Assembly (NCBI GenBank): GCA_002788775.1
Contig: PFRX01000043.1
Coordinates: 59,207-98,346, forward strand
From: Candidatus Peregrinibacteria bacterium CG_4_9_14_0_2_um_filter_53_11
GTDB lineage: Bacteria > Patescibacteriota > Gracilibacteria > UBA1369 > UM-FILTER-53-11
DNA length: 39,140 bases
Reading direction: 5' to 3'
The notes under the pieces were generated by a model. That model was not told where the DNA came from. It did not search any database and saw only the letters and a program-made list of their open reading frames with translations. Each line of letters starts with the position of its first letter. Within the stretch, counting starts at the first letter, position 1. Made by a program: the position numbers and the translations under genes. Below are positions 4,877 to 13,428 of the stretch, in pieces.

Positions 4877-4917
4877 CGTCTAGCAAAAAAACAGCCTATC
4901 GCGTATGGTTGGTTCAG

Positions 4918-5202
4918 ATGAAGAAAGCCATCTACAAGGTGCCGAACGGCAAACTTCTCAAAATCTTCCTCCGGGTAGATGGAGCTAAGTCGATTAGCCA
5001 GATTAAAATTACCGGTGATTTTTTTATGTACCCCGAAGAGACGATCATCCCTTTGGAAGAGGCACTGATCGGCACTCCCCTCTCTGAGGAAGCGCTCAGT
5101 AACAGGCTGCGTACTTTCTGGGAGTCTCATCCCACAACTCTCTTTGGCATCGATACGGACTCGCTTATTCTCACAATCCTTAACGCCGCACAGAGCCCAT
5201 GA
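4918..5202 (+). CDS. lplB: Lipoate-protein ligase accessory/C-terminal subunit (LplB type)
   Basis: This short protein corresponds to the C-terminal domain of lipoate-protein ligase made as a separate chain. It shows KVPNGKLLKIFLRVDG, then ITGDFFMYPEE, LEEALIGTPLSEE, and a final FGIDTDSLILTILNA. That order matches the Lip_prot_lig_C family and the archaeal LplB subunit, which is needed for lipoate adenylation by LplA. I place the start at ATG 4918 (MKKAIYK); an in-frame TTG at 4909 would add three residues. The stop TGA overlaps the lplA start in an ATGA, implying translational coupling and a stoichiometric complex with LplA. Recognition is by motif and context, not by a database search. Confidence 0.8.
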   Translation: MKKAIYKVPNGKLLKIFLRVDGAKSISQIKITGDFFMYPEETIIPLEEALIGTPLSEEALSNRLRTFWESHPTTLFGIDTDSLILTILNAAQSP

Positions 5203-5972
5203 AACTCCGACTTTTGATGACCGGCAAAAGCTCCGCTGCGGAAAATATGGCGATCGATGAAGCAGTACTTGAGTCAGTGAGCTCAAAGAACTCTCCTCCA
5301 ACGCTGCGTCTCTACGGATGGGAGCCTAAGGCGATCTCGCTGGGGTACTTCCAGAGCCTTGAGGAAGAGGTTGATCGAGAGGCGTGCAGAGTAAAAGGCA
5401 TCGATATCGTACGGCGAATGACCGGCGGTGGCGCCGTTTTCCATGATGAAGAGGTCACCTACAGCATTCACCTTCCCGAGGCTGAAGAGATTATACCCAC
5501 GGGCGTTCTCGAGTCTTACCGTGCGGTAAGCGAGGGAGTTATTCGCGGAGTTGCTGAGCTCGGAGCGGCCGCCTCGTTCGTCCCGCTCAACGACTTGGTC
5601 GTGATAGATCAAGGCCTACCCCGAAAAATCTCCGGCAATGCACAGACGCGCAAGAAAGGAGTTATACTGCAGCACGGGACACTTCTTCTACAAGTTGACG
5701 TGGATACGATGTTTGAGCTCCTGAGAGTCCCCAGCGAAAAGCTCAAAGGCAAACTCATCAGCGAAATACGCGAACGCGTTACAAGCCTCTCCAAACTCCT
5801 CGGCAGAAGAGTGACCTTTGATGAGGCCTGCGAAGCCCTAAAAAAGGGTTTCTCGGAAACCTTCAGCGATCACGAGCTTACACTTGAAAAGCTAACCGGC
5901 GATGAGCTCAAGCGCATAGACGAGCTGGTGAGAACCAAGTACGCTTCAGATACATGGACCGCTCAACGATAA
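5199..5972 (+). CDS. lplA: Lipoate-protein ligase A, catalytic subunit
   Basis: Activates lipoate with ATP and transfers it to a lysine of lipoyl-domain proteins. The 257 residues contain only the catalytic domain of the biotin/lipoate ligase fold. Seen in order are ENMAIDEAVL (N-terminal), RRMTGGGAVFHD (residues 72-83, lipoyl-AMP binding) and RKISGNAQTRKKGVILQHGTLLL, with the conserved Lys near 143. The C-terminal accessory domain of the E. coli-type enzyme is missing and is supplied by the gene immediately upstream, with which it overlaps by four bases. The dihydrolipoamide dehydrogenase gene follows after 17 bases, so the three form a lipoate-use cluster. The lipoylated acceptor (an E2 or GcvH protein) is not in this window. 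Confidence 0.93.
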   Translation: MKLRLLMTGKSSAAENMAIDEAVLESVSSKNSPPTLRLYGWEPKAISLGYFQSLEEEVDREACRVKGIDIVRRMTGGGAVFHDEEVTYSIHLPEAEEIIPTGVLESYRAVSEGVIRGVAELGAAASFVPLNDLVVIDQGLPRKISGNAQTRKKGVILQHGTLLLQVDVDTMFELLRVPSEKLKGKLISEIRERVTSLSKLLGRRVTFDEACEALKKGFSETFSDHELTLEKLTGDELKRIDELVRTKYASDTWTAQR

Positions 5973-5989
5973 CCTAAATTTTATCTTAT

Positions 5990-7315
5990 ATGGACTACGA
6001 TGTACTCATTATAGGCGGCGGCCCCGGCGGGGCCGCCGCCGCACGACACCTCGCAAAGAATGGCAGAAAAGTCGGCCTCATCTCTGACGAGCTTGGTGGC
6101 GAGTGTCTCAACTATGGCTGCATCCCAACCAAGACCTATCTCTGGACGGCGGAGCTCCTGGAAAAGCTCAGAGAAAATGGCAGTCTCTTCGGCATAGAGG
6201 CCGGCTCACCTCAGCTCAACTGGCAACAGCTCAAAGAGCGCCGCGCTGATGTAGTTCGCAAGCTCAGCAAGCAGCTCGCCTTTGTTGTCGAAAGAAGCGG
6301 CGCGACAATCATCCAAGGACGCGCACGATTTAAAGATGCACAGACACTGACAATCACGCCCCTTAACTCAGAAGAGAACAACTACGAGCTGACGGCTGAA
6401 AAGTTCATCATCGCCACCGGCTCGCTCCCCACCCAACTCCCCGGCTTCGACTGGAGTGAAAAAATCTTATCCAACCACGAGATCCTCGACCTTCCGCTCC
6501 TTCCTAAAAACCTTCTGGTCATTGGCGGAGGTGCAATCGGTGTTGAGTTCGCCTCAGTCTTCTCAGCCTTTGGGGTCGAGGTCTCAGTTGCCGAAGCCTC
6601 AGATCGGCTTCTCCCCCTTGCCGATGCAGAGGTCGCTCAAGAGCTCGAACGAGTCTTTGCAAAGAAGAAAATAACCGTACTTAAAGATATCCGCATCTCG
6701 CCCGAACAAGCCGCCGTCTACGATAAGGTGCTCATCGCCGTTGGACGCACCCCAGCTACCGGCGCACTCGGACTTGAGGCCGCCGGTCTCACCGTTGAGC
6801 ATAAGGGAATCCCCACCAACGCGGTTATGCAGACCTCTCTTCCTCATATCTATGCCATCGGCGACGTCGCCGGAAAAGCACTCCTGGCATACACCGCAGA
6901 ACGAGAAGGAACGATTGCCGCACAACACATTTTGGGGAAGAATCCGGCACCTCTCCGCTACGAGACCGTCCCCACAACGATCTTCTCGCTCCCGGAGGTC
7001 GCCTTTGTCGGCGCAACTGAAGAGCAGGTAAAAGATACCGGCAGAGCCTATCGGGTGGGGAAGAGCATGAACATAGGAAATGCCAAGGCACTCATCATGG
7101 CCGGCCGAGAGGGGTTTGCTAAAGTCCTGATAGACAGTGAAAGCAACCAGCTGCTGGGGATTCATATGATTGGAGAAAAGGCCTCCGAACTGATCGCCGA
7201 AGCCTCACTCGCACTCACTAATGATATGAGCCTGGAGTCGTTCACTCTCAACCTGCACAGCCATCCGATTCTTGGCGAGATACTCAAAGAGGCCTGTGAG
7301 GAGCTGGCTCTTTAG
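5990..7315 (+). CDS. lpdA: Dihydrolipoamide dehydrogenase (FAD, disulfide oxidoreductase)
   Basis: E3 component that reoxidises dihydrolipoamide using FAD and NAD. The 441 residues show an N-terminal FAD loop GGGPGGAAAA (residues 9-18), redox disulfide GGECLNYGCIPTKT with Cys39 and Cys44, NAD-binding VIGGGAIGVEFAS, a second FAD motif IYAIGDVAG, and the C-terminal interface motif HSHPILGE with His425 and Glu430, the acid-base pair of active enzymes. Slightly shorter than typical Lpd (about 460-480). A mercuric-reductase-like relative is the main alternative, but the lplB-lplA neighbourhood and the HxHPxxxE motif favour Lpd. The DNA encoding the first FAD loop forms a perfect 12-bp all-GC hairpin (6014-6040). 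No E1 or E2 genes are nearby. Confidence 0.9.
   Translation: MDYDVLIIGGGPGGAAAARHLAKNGRKVGLISDELGGECLNYGCIPTKTYLWTAELLEKLRENGSLFGIEAGSPQLNWQQLKERRADVVRKLSKQLAFVVERSGATIIQGRARFKDAQTLTITPLNSEENNYELTAEKFIIATGSLPTQLPGFDWSEKILSNHEILDLPLLPKNLLVIGGGAIGVEFASVFSAFGVEVSVAEASDRLLPLADAEVAQELERVFAKKKITVLKDIRISPEQAAVYDKVLIAVGRTPATGALGLEAAGLTVEHKGIPTNAVMQTSLPHIYAIGDVAGKALLAYTAEREGTIAAQHILGKNPAPLRYETVPTTIFSLPEVAFVGATEEQVKDTGRAYRVGKSMNIGNAKALIMAGREGFAKVLIDSESNQLLGIHMIGEKASELIAEASLALTNDMSLESFTLNLHSHPILGEILKEACEELAL
6014..6040 (+). repeat. Perfect 12-bp GC-only hairpin inside the start of lpdA
   Basis: GGCGGCGGCCCC-GGC-GGGGCCGCCGCC lies at codons 9-17 of lpdA. The arms are perfectly complementary with a 3-base loop. 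It encodes the glycine/alanine-rich FAD loop. Synonymous choices could easily have broken it, yet every position pairs. It should be very stable as RNA or single-stranded DNA. Confidence 0.9.
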
Positions 7316-9828: not shown

Positions 9829-12800
9829 ATGTCCCAGCCCTCTCAACAGAACGCCACAGACCGCCGCACCGAAACCCGAACTCGTTCGGAGCTCACTCGT
9901 GTTCGCCGCGAATCTGCCACGCCAAAAAAATCCGGACTTCACATCGGTCGGCTTTTCACAACCAAAGGCAGCGAGCCTCTGGAGGAGGGTGCCTATGAAA
10001 AGCGGGTATCACGTATCACAAATCCTGATGGCTCGATCGTCTTCGAGATGAAAGATGTAGAGGTGCCGGCAAGCTGGTCACAAGTTGCAACAGACGTTAT
10101 CACGCAAAAATACTTCCGCAAACGTGGGGTTTCCGATGAGAAGGGTGGGCGCAACGGCTCTGAGTGGTCGGCCAAGCAGGTCGTCCGTCGTCTGGCGGGC
10201 ACATGGAGATACTGGGGAGAAAAATACGGTTACTTTGAGACTAAAGAAGATGCAGAGAATTATGAGGCCGAGATGCAGCAGATGCTCATCACTCAGGCTG
10301 GTGCACCAAACAGCCCGCAGTGGTTCAACACGGGTCTCGCCTGGGCCTACGATATTAAAGGTGAGGCGCAGGGACACTACTTTGTCGATCCGGAGACCGA
10401 AGAGCTTCAGCGCGCCGTCGACTCCTACTCACACCCACAGCCCCACGCCTGCTTTATCCAGTCGGTGAAAGACGACCTGGTGAATGAGGGAGGAATTTTC
10501 GACCTTGTCATCCGTGAGGCTCGACTCTTCAAGTTCGGCTCAGGCACGGGAACAAACTTCTCGGCGATCCGATCCAAGAGCGAACCTCTCTCGGGTGGAG
10601 GACAGTCATCGGGCCTCATGAGCTTCCTCTGCACGATCGATCGCGCCGCCGGTGCAATCAAGTCGGGTGGAACAACCCGCCGTGCAGCCAAGATGGTCTG
10701 CATAGACATCGACCACCCGGAGGTTGAGGAGTTTATCAACTGGAAGGTTATTGAGGAGCAGAAGGTTGCCGCGCTCCATGCGGGCTCCTATATTTGCAAG
10801 AACCATCTTCAAGCTATCTTCGAGTCAGCTCGCCGCGACGGGATCGACCCCGAGGTTAATCCGGATCTCAAAAAACTTATCAAAGCTGCAAATAACGAGT
10901 ACGTCCCCCTGAGTTACATCAAGCGCGTCCTCATGCTTGCGGAGCAGAAGGAGTCGTTCGCAGACGATGACTTCAACTTCCCAACCTATGACACAGACTT
11001 CCGCTCTGAGGCCTACCTAACGGTCTCCGGCCAGAACTCAAACAACTCGGTACGTCTGAGTGACGAGTTCCTCGGCGCTGCAAAGCGTGATGAGATGTGG
11101 AACCTCCGCAACCGTGCAAAAGGCGATGTGGCCCGTCAGGTCTCTGCACGAAAGTTGTGGAACGATATTACCTACGCCGCCTGGGCCTGTGCAGACCCGG
11201 GACTTCAGTTCGACACGACAATTAACGACTGGCATACCTGTCCATCCGACGGTCGCATTAATGCCAGCAACCCCTGCTCGGAGTACATGTTCCTAGACGA
11301 CACAGCCTGCAACCTCGCCTCGATCAACTTGATTAGGTACTACGATCCGGAGACACAAAAACTCGATATCAAGAAGATCCGCCACGCCTCACGCCTCTGG
11401 ACGATCACTCTCGAGATCTCGGTCTTGATGGCTCAGTTCCCTTCAAAAGAGATTGCTCAGAATTCTTTTATCTACCGCACCCTCGGTCTTGGCTATGCCA
11501 ACATGGGAACCGTTTTAATGCAGATGGGAATTCCCTATGCGAGTGAGCGCGGCTATGCGATCTGCGCAGCACTCACGGCCATTATCGGTGGCCAAGCTTA
11601 CGCAACCTCGGCAGAGATGGCTGAAAAGCTCGGAGCCTTCAGCGCCTACAAGAAGAACCGAGATAACATGCTCCGCGTTATTCGTAATCACCGCCGAGCC
11701 GCCTACAACGAGGTCAAAGAAAACTATGAGGGACTGATGGTCGCACCCCAGGGAATTCGCTCGGACCACTGCCCCGATTACCTTTTGGAAAGCGCCCGCA
11801 AGGTGTGGGACGAGGCTCTCGAACGAGGAGAGAAACATGGCTTCCGCAATGCACAGGTCACGGTTATTGCTCCAACCGGAACGATCGGTCTCGTTATGGA
11901 CTGCGACACCACAGGCATCGAGCCCGACTTCGCACTCGTTAAGTTTAAGAAGCTCGTCGGAGGTGGTTACTTTAAAATCGTCAACCAGTCTGTAACCAAA
12001 GCGCTCAAGGCACTTAAGTACAGCGAGACTCAGATTAGCGAGATGGAGTCTTATGTAAAAGGACACGCAACACTCAAGAACTGCCCACACATTAACGAGG
12101 CCAGCCTTAAAGAGAAGGGCTTCACGCCCGAGGCGCTCACGGCTATAGAGACACAGCTCAGCTCGGCCTTCGAGCTCAAGTTCGCCTTCAACCGCTTTGT
12201 CTTGGGCGATGAGTTCTGCAAGAATGTCCTCGGCCTCAGTGAAGAAGTTCTGAGTGATCCGGCCCTCAACATCCTTGAGATCCTGGGCTTTTCGCGTGAT
12301 CAAATCGAAGAGGCAAACGAGTATGTCTGTGGAACAATGACCATCGAAGGAGCACCTCACCTCAAGGCAGAACACTACCCAATCTTTGACTGTGCAAACC
12401 GCTGCGGTAAGAAGGGCGAGAGATTTATCCCGTGGGAGGCCCATCTCCGCATGATGGCCGCAGCTCAGCCCTTCATCTCAGGTGCGATCAGCAAGACGAT
12501 CAACATGCCTGAAGAGTCAACAATTGAAGAGGTTGAAAAAGCCTACACACTCAGCTGGGAGTACATGCTCAAGGCCGTCGCGCTCTACCGTGACGGAAGT
12601 AAACTCAGCCAGCCACTCAGCACCTCTTCGGCCGGCTCAAATTATGGTGCGCTCTTCAGATTCCTCGAAGAAGAGAACGACGAAAACATCTCAACGGAAG
12701 AGGTCAATGACCTACTCGCCCAAGAGATGCGCAAGCCGCTCCGCCGTAAGCTGCCCGAAGAACGACACTCACTCACCCACAAGTTCTCGATCGCAAATCA

Positions 12801-13428
12801 CGAGGGCTACTTGACCATCGGCCTGTACGACGATGGCTCCCCCGGTGAGATCTTTATAAAGATGAGTAAGGAGGGATCGACCCTCTCGGGTATCATGGAC
12901 GCCCTCGCCCTGACCATCTCACTCTGTCTTCAGTATGGCGTCCCACTCGAGGTTCTTGTTGCAAAGTTCACTCACGCTCGCTTCGAGCCCTCCGGTATGA
13001 CCGGCAACAAGCACGTGCCCATCGTAAAGTCGATTGTCGACTACATCGGACGCTACCTCGCGCTCAAGTTCCTTCCCAAAGAAACGGCAAAGAAGTACCA
13101 CAACGAAGAGCTTATCGAGCGAGCCTATGCCGAGGCGAACATCTCGCACCTACCAAAGCTCCCCATCGAACGTGCCGCCGAGTCGGCACCCGAGGTGAGC
13201 CTCAAACATGTCGCCTCAACAAGCCACGCTCCGGCAGGGACGATGACGGCAAGCGCGACACGAGGAGCAGTCACCTCAAAAGAACAGCTTCAAGTGATGC
13301 AGACCAATATGGCTCTGGCCCTGAATAATGATGACGCCCCCATGTGCTCAACATGCGGCATGGTCATGGTCCGAAACGGTGCCTGCTACAAGTGTACAGG
13401 CTGCGGCGAAACAAGTGGCTGCAGCTAG
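9829..13428 (+). CDS. nrdJ: Adenosylcobalamin-dependent (class II) ribonucleotide reductase, large form
   Basis: Reduces ribonucleotides to deoxyribonucleotides using a radical from adenosylcobalamin, so it works with or without oxygen. The 1199-residue protein is full length for the large zinc-ribbon class II type. Seen are NSPQWFNTGL, HACFIQSV (first redox Cys region), GSGTGTNFS, KSGGTTRRAAKMV, the finger-loop NPCSE with Asn481, Cys483 (radical site) and Glu485, TACNLASINL (second redox Cys), and APTGTIGLVMDCDTTGIEPDFA. The tail has a zinc-ribbon/shuttle motif CSTCG...CYKCTGCGETSGC that re-reduces the active site. No intein is evident. Two NrdR boxes overlap its promoter; a strong terminator follows the stop. 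Cobalamin synthesis or uptake genes are not in the window, so the cofactor is probably scavenged (inference). Confidence 0.96.
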   Translation: MSQPSQQNATDRRTETRTRSELTRVRRESATPKKSGLHIGRLFTTKGSEPLEEGAYEKRVSRITNPDGSIVFEMKDVEVPASWSQVATDVITQKYFRKRGVSDEKGGRNGSEWSAKQVVRRLAGTWRYWGEKYGYFETKEDAENYEAEMQQMLITQAGAPNSPQWFNTGLAWAYDIKGEAQGHYFVDPETEELQRAVDSYSHPQPHACFIQSVKDDLVNEGGIFDLVIREARLFKFGSGTGTNFSAIRSKSEPLSGGGQSSGLMSFLCTIDRAAGAIKSGGTTRRAAKMVCIDIDHPEVEEFINWKVIEEQKVAALHAGSYICKNHLQAIFESARRDGIDPEVNPDLKKLIKAANNEYVPLSYIKRVLMLAEQKESFADDDFNFPTYDTDFRSEAYLTVSGQNSNNSVRLSDEFLGAAKRDEMWNLRNRAKGDVARQVSARKLWNDITYAAWACADPGLQFDTTINDWHTCPSDGRINASNPCSEYMFLDDTACNLASINLIRYYDPETQKLDIKKIRHASRLWTITLEISVLMAQFPSKEIAQNSFIYRTLGLGYANMGTVLMQMGIPYASERGYAICAALTAIIGGQAYATSAEMAEKLGAFSAYKKNRDNMLRVIRNHRRAAYNEVKENYEGLMVAPQGIRSDHCPDYLLESARKVWDEALERGEKHGFRNAQVTVIAPTGTIGLVMDCDTTGIEPDFALVKFKKLVGGGYFKIVNQSVTKALKALKYSETQISEMESYVKGHATLKNCPHINEASLKEKGFTPEALTAIETQLSSAFELKFAFNRFVLGDEFCKNVLGLSEEVLSDPALNILEILGFSRDQIEEANEYVCGTMTIEGAPHLKAEHYPIFDCANRCGKKGERFIPWEAHLRMMAAAQPFISGAISKTINMPEESTIEEVEKAYTLSWEYMLKAVALYRDGSKLSQPLSTSSAGSNYGALFRFLEEENDENISTEEVNDLLAQEMRKPLRRKLPEERHSLTHKFSIANHEGYLTIGLYDDGSPGEIFIKMSKEGSTLSGIMDALALTISLCLQYGVPLEVLVAKFTHARFEPSGMTGNKHVPIVKSIVDYIGRYLALKFLPKETAKKYHNEELIERAYAEANISHLPKLPIERAAESAPEVSLKHVASTSHAPAGTMTASATRGAVTSKEQLQVMQTNMALALNNDDAPMCSTCGMVMVRNGACYKCTGCGETSGCS

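Follow-up and report, generated by a model that had tools for sequence, protein, structure and literature searches.

A predicted bipartite lipoate-protein ligase linked to lpd in a CPR bacterium with LipA and pyruvate dehydrogenase genes

We analysed a 39,140-nucleotide stretch of DNA (the window) from a 1.2 Mb Patescibacteria (CPR) genome that is 99% complete in 49 contigs. Positions 4918-7315 of the window constitute a three-gene unit, lplB-lplA-lpd, with the following features:

4918..5202, + strand: lplB, predicted small accessory subunit of a bipartite lipoate-protein ligase (94 aa; PF10437, NF053749 and 3r07_C matches)
5199..5972, + strand: lplA, predicted catalytic subunit (257 aa; PF21948 and 2ars/3r07_A matches)
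5199..5202, + strand: ATGA overlap of the lplB stop and the lplA start, read from the sequence
5990..7315, + strand: lpd, dihydrolipoyl dehydrogenase, E3 (441 aa; TIGR01350, CLNYGC redox disulphide motif)

The initial annotation had described a split ligase with the small-subunit gene first and a four-base overlap, and the coordinates and frames of all three genes proved correct. The lplB gene runs from an ATG at 4918 (with a TTG in frame at 4909) to a TGA at 5200-5202, lplA from an ATG at 5199 to a stop at 5970-5972, and lpd from an ATG at 5990, 17 bases past lplA, to a stop that ends at 7315. Promoter and terminator scans of the locus gave signals close to chance level, and the search for a regulatory RNA upstream of lplB returned no Rfam match in the window apart from a tRNA. 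Further along the window (9829-13428), a large protein of 1199 aa resembles, by eye, a vitamin B12-type ribonucleotide reductase.

The small protein had been proposed to be the accessory domain of the ligase, and a profile search of the 4918 product bore this out, with a score of 31.9 bits against PF10437 (cut-off 24, E 1.2e-7). Against the NCBIfam LplB family (NF053749) it scored 60.9 bits (E 1e-16), just under an equivalog cut-off of 65 that serves for naming and is not itself a functional feature; the LplBs of all five CPR genomes found to carry the ligase fall under this cut-off, and their neighbourhoods and motifs agree. The best Protein Data Bank match of LplB was T. acidophilum LplB (3r07_C, E 9.4e-7). 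Its GDFF motif is encoded at 5014-5025, and both GDFF and a PE motif are invariant among 24 LplBs aligned. An AlphaFold model built from these 24 aligned LplBs was confident (pLDDT 95.7, pTM 0.86), and by its sequence the protein is predicted to share the fold of LplB in the 3r07 complex. LplA scored 184.5 bits against PF21948 and had T. acidophilum LplA (2ars, 3r07_A) as its best Protein Data Bank match (E about 1e-29); its RR-x-TGGGAV lipoate loop is intact, as is the predicted catalytic Lys143 (codon 5625-5627) in the motif RKISGNAQT, of the SGNAQ type. Judged by sequence, the small protein is thus a genuine accessory subunit, and the pair is a real bipartite lipoate-protein ligase, a further example of an enzyme type already known, though few members of this lineage have it. 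That the small reading frame is an unrelated protein or a chance ORF next to an LplA that works alone draws on the score under the NCBIfam cut-off, but has practically no probability left and is refuted in practice by the PF10437 score above cut-off, the 3r07_C match, the GDFF motif invariant in 24 sequences, the confident model and the conserved position adjoining LplA.

To place the gene order among relatives, we inspected 84 LplAs, comprising that of the window, those of three CPR genomes from a whole-genome search and 80 named loci, a set biased towards relatives of the window LplA. The lysine motif is kept in 84/84 of these proteins. A separate LplB gene is adjacent at 78/84 loci, with lplB first at 65 (33 of them in Spirochaetota) and lplA first at 13; six loci have no LplB, four of which are cut at a contig end beside lplA. 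The small-subunit-first order highlighted by the initial annotation therefore holds here, and it is also the commonest order in relatives (65 of 78 pairs) and the order in Thermoplasma (PMC3904984). An ATGA-type overlap was found in 29 of the 65 lplB-lplA pairs and says nothing firm by itself, so the earlier suggestion that it implies fixed stoichiometry was dropped. The view of split ligases as mainly archaeal is likewise outdated: they have been published for bacteria (PMC3904984, PMC10332631), bacterial LplAB falls in clade 3 of the ligase family tree (PMC10332631), and we observed split ligases in Spirochaetota, Chloroflexota, a gammaproteobacterial MAG and several CPR lineages. Beyond the phylum of the window's genome, such gene pairs are thus common.

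The third gene of the unit encodes a protein scoring 430.2 bits against TIGR01350 (cut-off 408.8), with CLNYGC as its redox-active CxxxxC motif. A second Lpd-like flavoprotein of 465 aa is encoded on contig C7 (L142, 484-1881) and is best matched by PRK06292 / mycothione reductase-like proteins; because the genome has this second protein, the pairing of the window Lpd with pyruvate dehydrogenase (PDH) is an inferred one.

We then considered which proteins the ligase could serve. The proposal that it acts on a complex whose genes lie elsewhere in a small genome was supported, as the genome-wide search for lipoyl-domain proteins detected one such domain, in a PDH E2 that also has an E3-binding domain. 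The E2 gene lies in an operon, lipA-pdhA-pdhB-pdhC, on contig C40 (L007, 5073-10140, minus strand), and its predicted lipoylation site is K43 in VETAKAIVEI. No GcvH was found in the window's genome, and it was rejected as a ligase target. The suggested search for lipA and lipB gave a divided answer: lipA is present as the first gene of the PDH operon, and no lipB was found. Of the four radical SAM proteins in the genome, the three besides LipA are Elp3, RlmN and a QueE-like protein, so that LipA is the sole lipoyl synthase seen and LipS1/S2 was rejected for this role. Neither a second ligase nor an octanoyltransferase of the LplA, LipB or LipM type was detected in the window's genome, and a search that was positive for acyl carrier protein (ACP) in 11/14 control genomes gave no ACP match in the five CPR genomes with the ligase, the window's included. 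An ACP or transferase may have been missed, as the genome is not closed (99% complete, in 49 contigs).

Taken together, we consider it very likely that LplB-LplA is an ATP-dependent ligase of the T. acidophilum type that lipoylates PDH E2 with the help of LipA, and that Lpd acts as the E3. LplB and LplA would form a heterodimeric, ATP-dependent lipoate/octanoate-protein ligase that converts free lipoate or octanoate to acyl-AMP and passes the acyl group to the predicted K43 on the single lipoyl domain of E2; where octanoate had been attached, LipA would add two sulphurs to give lipoyl-E2, and Lpd would re-oxidise the lipoyl arm of PDH. For the T. acidophilum pair, ATP-dependent activation of free lipoate or octanoate and transfer to the lysine of a lipoyl domain are established, according to primary work cited in two publications (PMC10332631, PMC3904984). 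The searches returned neither ACP nor LipB nor LipM, which makes the ligase the probable sole route to lipoyl-E2, dependent on lipoate or fatty acid from outside. Transfer from octanoyl-ACP is not to be expected where ACP is missing, and the acid would have to be supplied externally or by turnover of lipids. Five complete published genomes of Peribacteria, a CPR group considered for comparison only, are reported to be without fatty acid synthesis and to use pyruvate:ferredoxin oxidoreductase (PFOR) (PMC4736985), which fits dependence on outside acids and does not fit PDH.

A simpler possibility is that the pair only attaches lipoate taken from the environment, LipA being a relict or of minor importance. 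This would agree with the missing octanoyl-ACP donor, as no ACP was found, and with the acceptance of free lipoate by ligases of the LplA-LplB family. However, LipA is canonical, intact, well above its cut-off (396 versus 310 bits) and first in the PDH operon, and LplB, LplA and LipA above cut-off co-occur perfectly, in the same 5 of 380 sampled Patescibacteria/CPR genomes. We therefore regard scavenging alone as unlikely; the ligase part of the earlier scavenging proposal stands, and because a canonical LipA is present, adjoining the PDH genes, the system is better described as ligase plus LipA. Distinctly less probable still is that LplA is a LipM-like octanoyltransferase using acyl-CoA or another thioester donor, with LplB merely aiding substrate recognition. 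LipM enzymes derive from archaeal relatives of LplA (PMC10332631), and the ligase reading has to presume a source of free octanoate, but LipMs occur without LplB, and here LplB is intact and adjacent, as in 78/84 relatives. The features that define LipM and LipB octanoyltransferases, namely no LplB and an octanoyl-ACP donor, are at odds with an LplB that is present and an ACP that was not detected.

Within the phylum, the five ligase-bearing genomes differ in the surroundings of the ligase, and three of them have an E2. In G039, G057 and G019, the order is gcvT-gcvH-gcvP-lipA-lplB-lplA, while in G004, which belongs to the same taxonomic order as the window's genome, lplB-lplA faces lipA-pdhA-pdhB-pdhC. 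G019 also encodes a second lipoate ligase-like protein of 245 aa, without an adjoining LplB, directly before PDH E1a-E1b-E2 (L054, 5288-9328); with its split ligase beside glycine cleavage genes and the second ligase at PDH, this genome apparently has one per lipoate enzyme. Neither of the two genomes of the order that bear PDH (the window's, G000, and G004) has POR_N (PFOR family), which was found in 36/59 across the order; the chance of both lacking it is about 15%, and replacement of PFOR by PDH in the order is suggestive at this level. Our literature search found no publication dealing with lipoate in CPR bacteria.

The phylogeny of LplA against archaeal and bacterial forms called for by the initial annotation was run, and it placed some of the CPR proteins firmly and left that of the window without a supported place. 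G004 fell inside Micrarchaeota (100/98), and the three Wirthbacteria-like genomes (G039, G057, G019) grouped with a gammaproteobacterial MAG (100/99). The window LplA, distant from T. acidophilum LplA, was sister to Spirochaetes (83/58) in one tree and had an unsupported placement in the other. A single origin of the window and G004 ligases, the only two found in the order, was rejected by an AU test (p 0.001) on a pair chosen after the first tree was seen; repeated acquisition of the module is therefore probable. In a LipA tree restricted to the same loci, the window LipA grouped with G004 and Micrarchaeota (96/85). As the window LplA does not join this group, the ligase of the window's genome probably has a history other than that of the PDH operon. 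The G004 locus (L050, 1657-9069) shares its layout, lipA-E1a-E1b-E2 facing lplB-lplA, with two Micrarchaeota loci (L126 and L120, the latter cut within E1a), and this layout together with the LplA and LipA trees suggests that a PDH-lipoylation island has passed between DPANN archaea and CPR bacteria. Tentatively, and with the balance of probability somewhat against it, a few CPR bacteria may have replaced the usual PFOR with a lipoate-dependent PDH and an ACP-independent split ligase/LipA system, the ligase having been gained repeatedly from different archaeal or bacterial sources and the entire G004 island matching that of Micrarchaeota.

The lipoylation system described above is complete, its host has no detectable ACP, and such systems are very rare in the phylum (5/380 sampled genomes). 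These results suggest what the ATP-dependent split ligase may be good for, namely lipoylation from free lipoate or fatty acid where ACP is lacking, as in archaea, and they offer a case of modular, repeated ligase transfer between distant lineages.

Among known systems, the bipartite LplA-LplB of Thermoplasma acidophilum was reportedly described by Christensen and Cronan in 2009. Both of its subunits (PDB 3r07) are homologous to those of the window, although the host here, a CPR bacterium, has LipA as well. In T. acidophilum, too, the small-subunit gene comes first and the reading frames overlap, by 1 base there (PMC3904984) and by 4 bases here. The lipA-lplB-lplA clusters of Spirochaetota and Thermoplasmatota (within L057-L136) share the split ligase, the order and often the ATGA overlap, and their closest LplAs are about 50-55% identical to the window LplA; lipA lies directly upstream in these clusters, whereas here it adjoins the PDH genes on a different contig, and the gene after lplA is lpd. 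The sLpl(AB)-LipS1/S2 pathway (PMC10332631) similarly combines a ligase with a radical-SAM lipoyl synthase to make protein-bound lipoate from free octanoate, but the window's genome has split subunits and a canonical LipA, with no LipS1/S2 candidate among its radical SAM proteins. Finally, the fused Lpl(AB) of E. coli has the same catalytic and accessory domains, the accessory domain being C-terminal in a single polypeptide, whereas here it is a separate protein encoded first.
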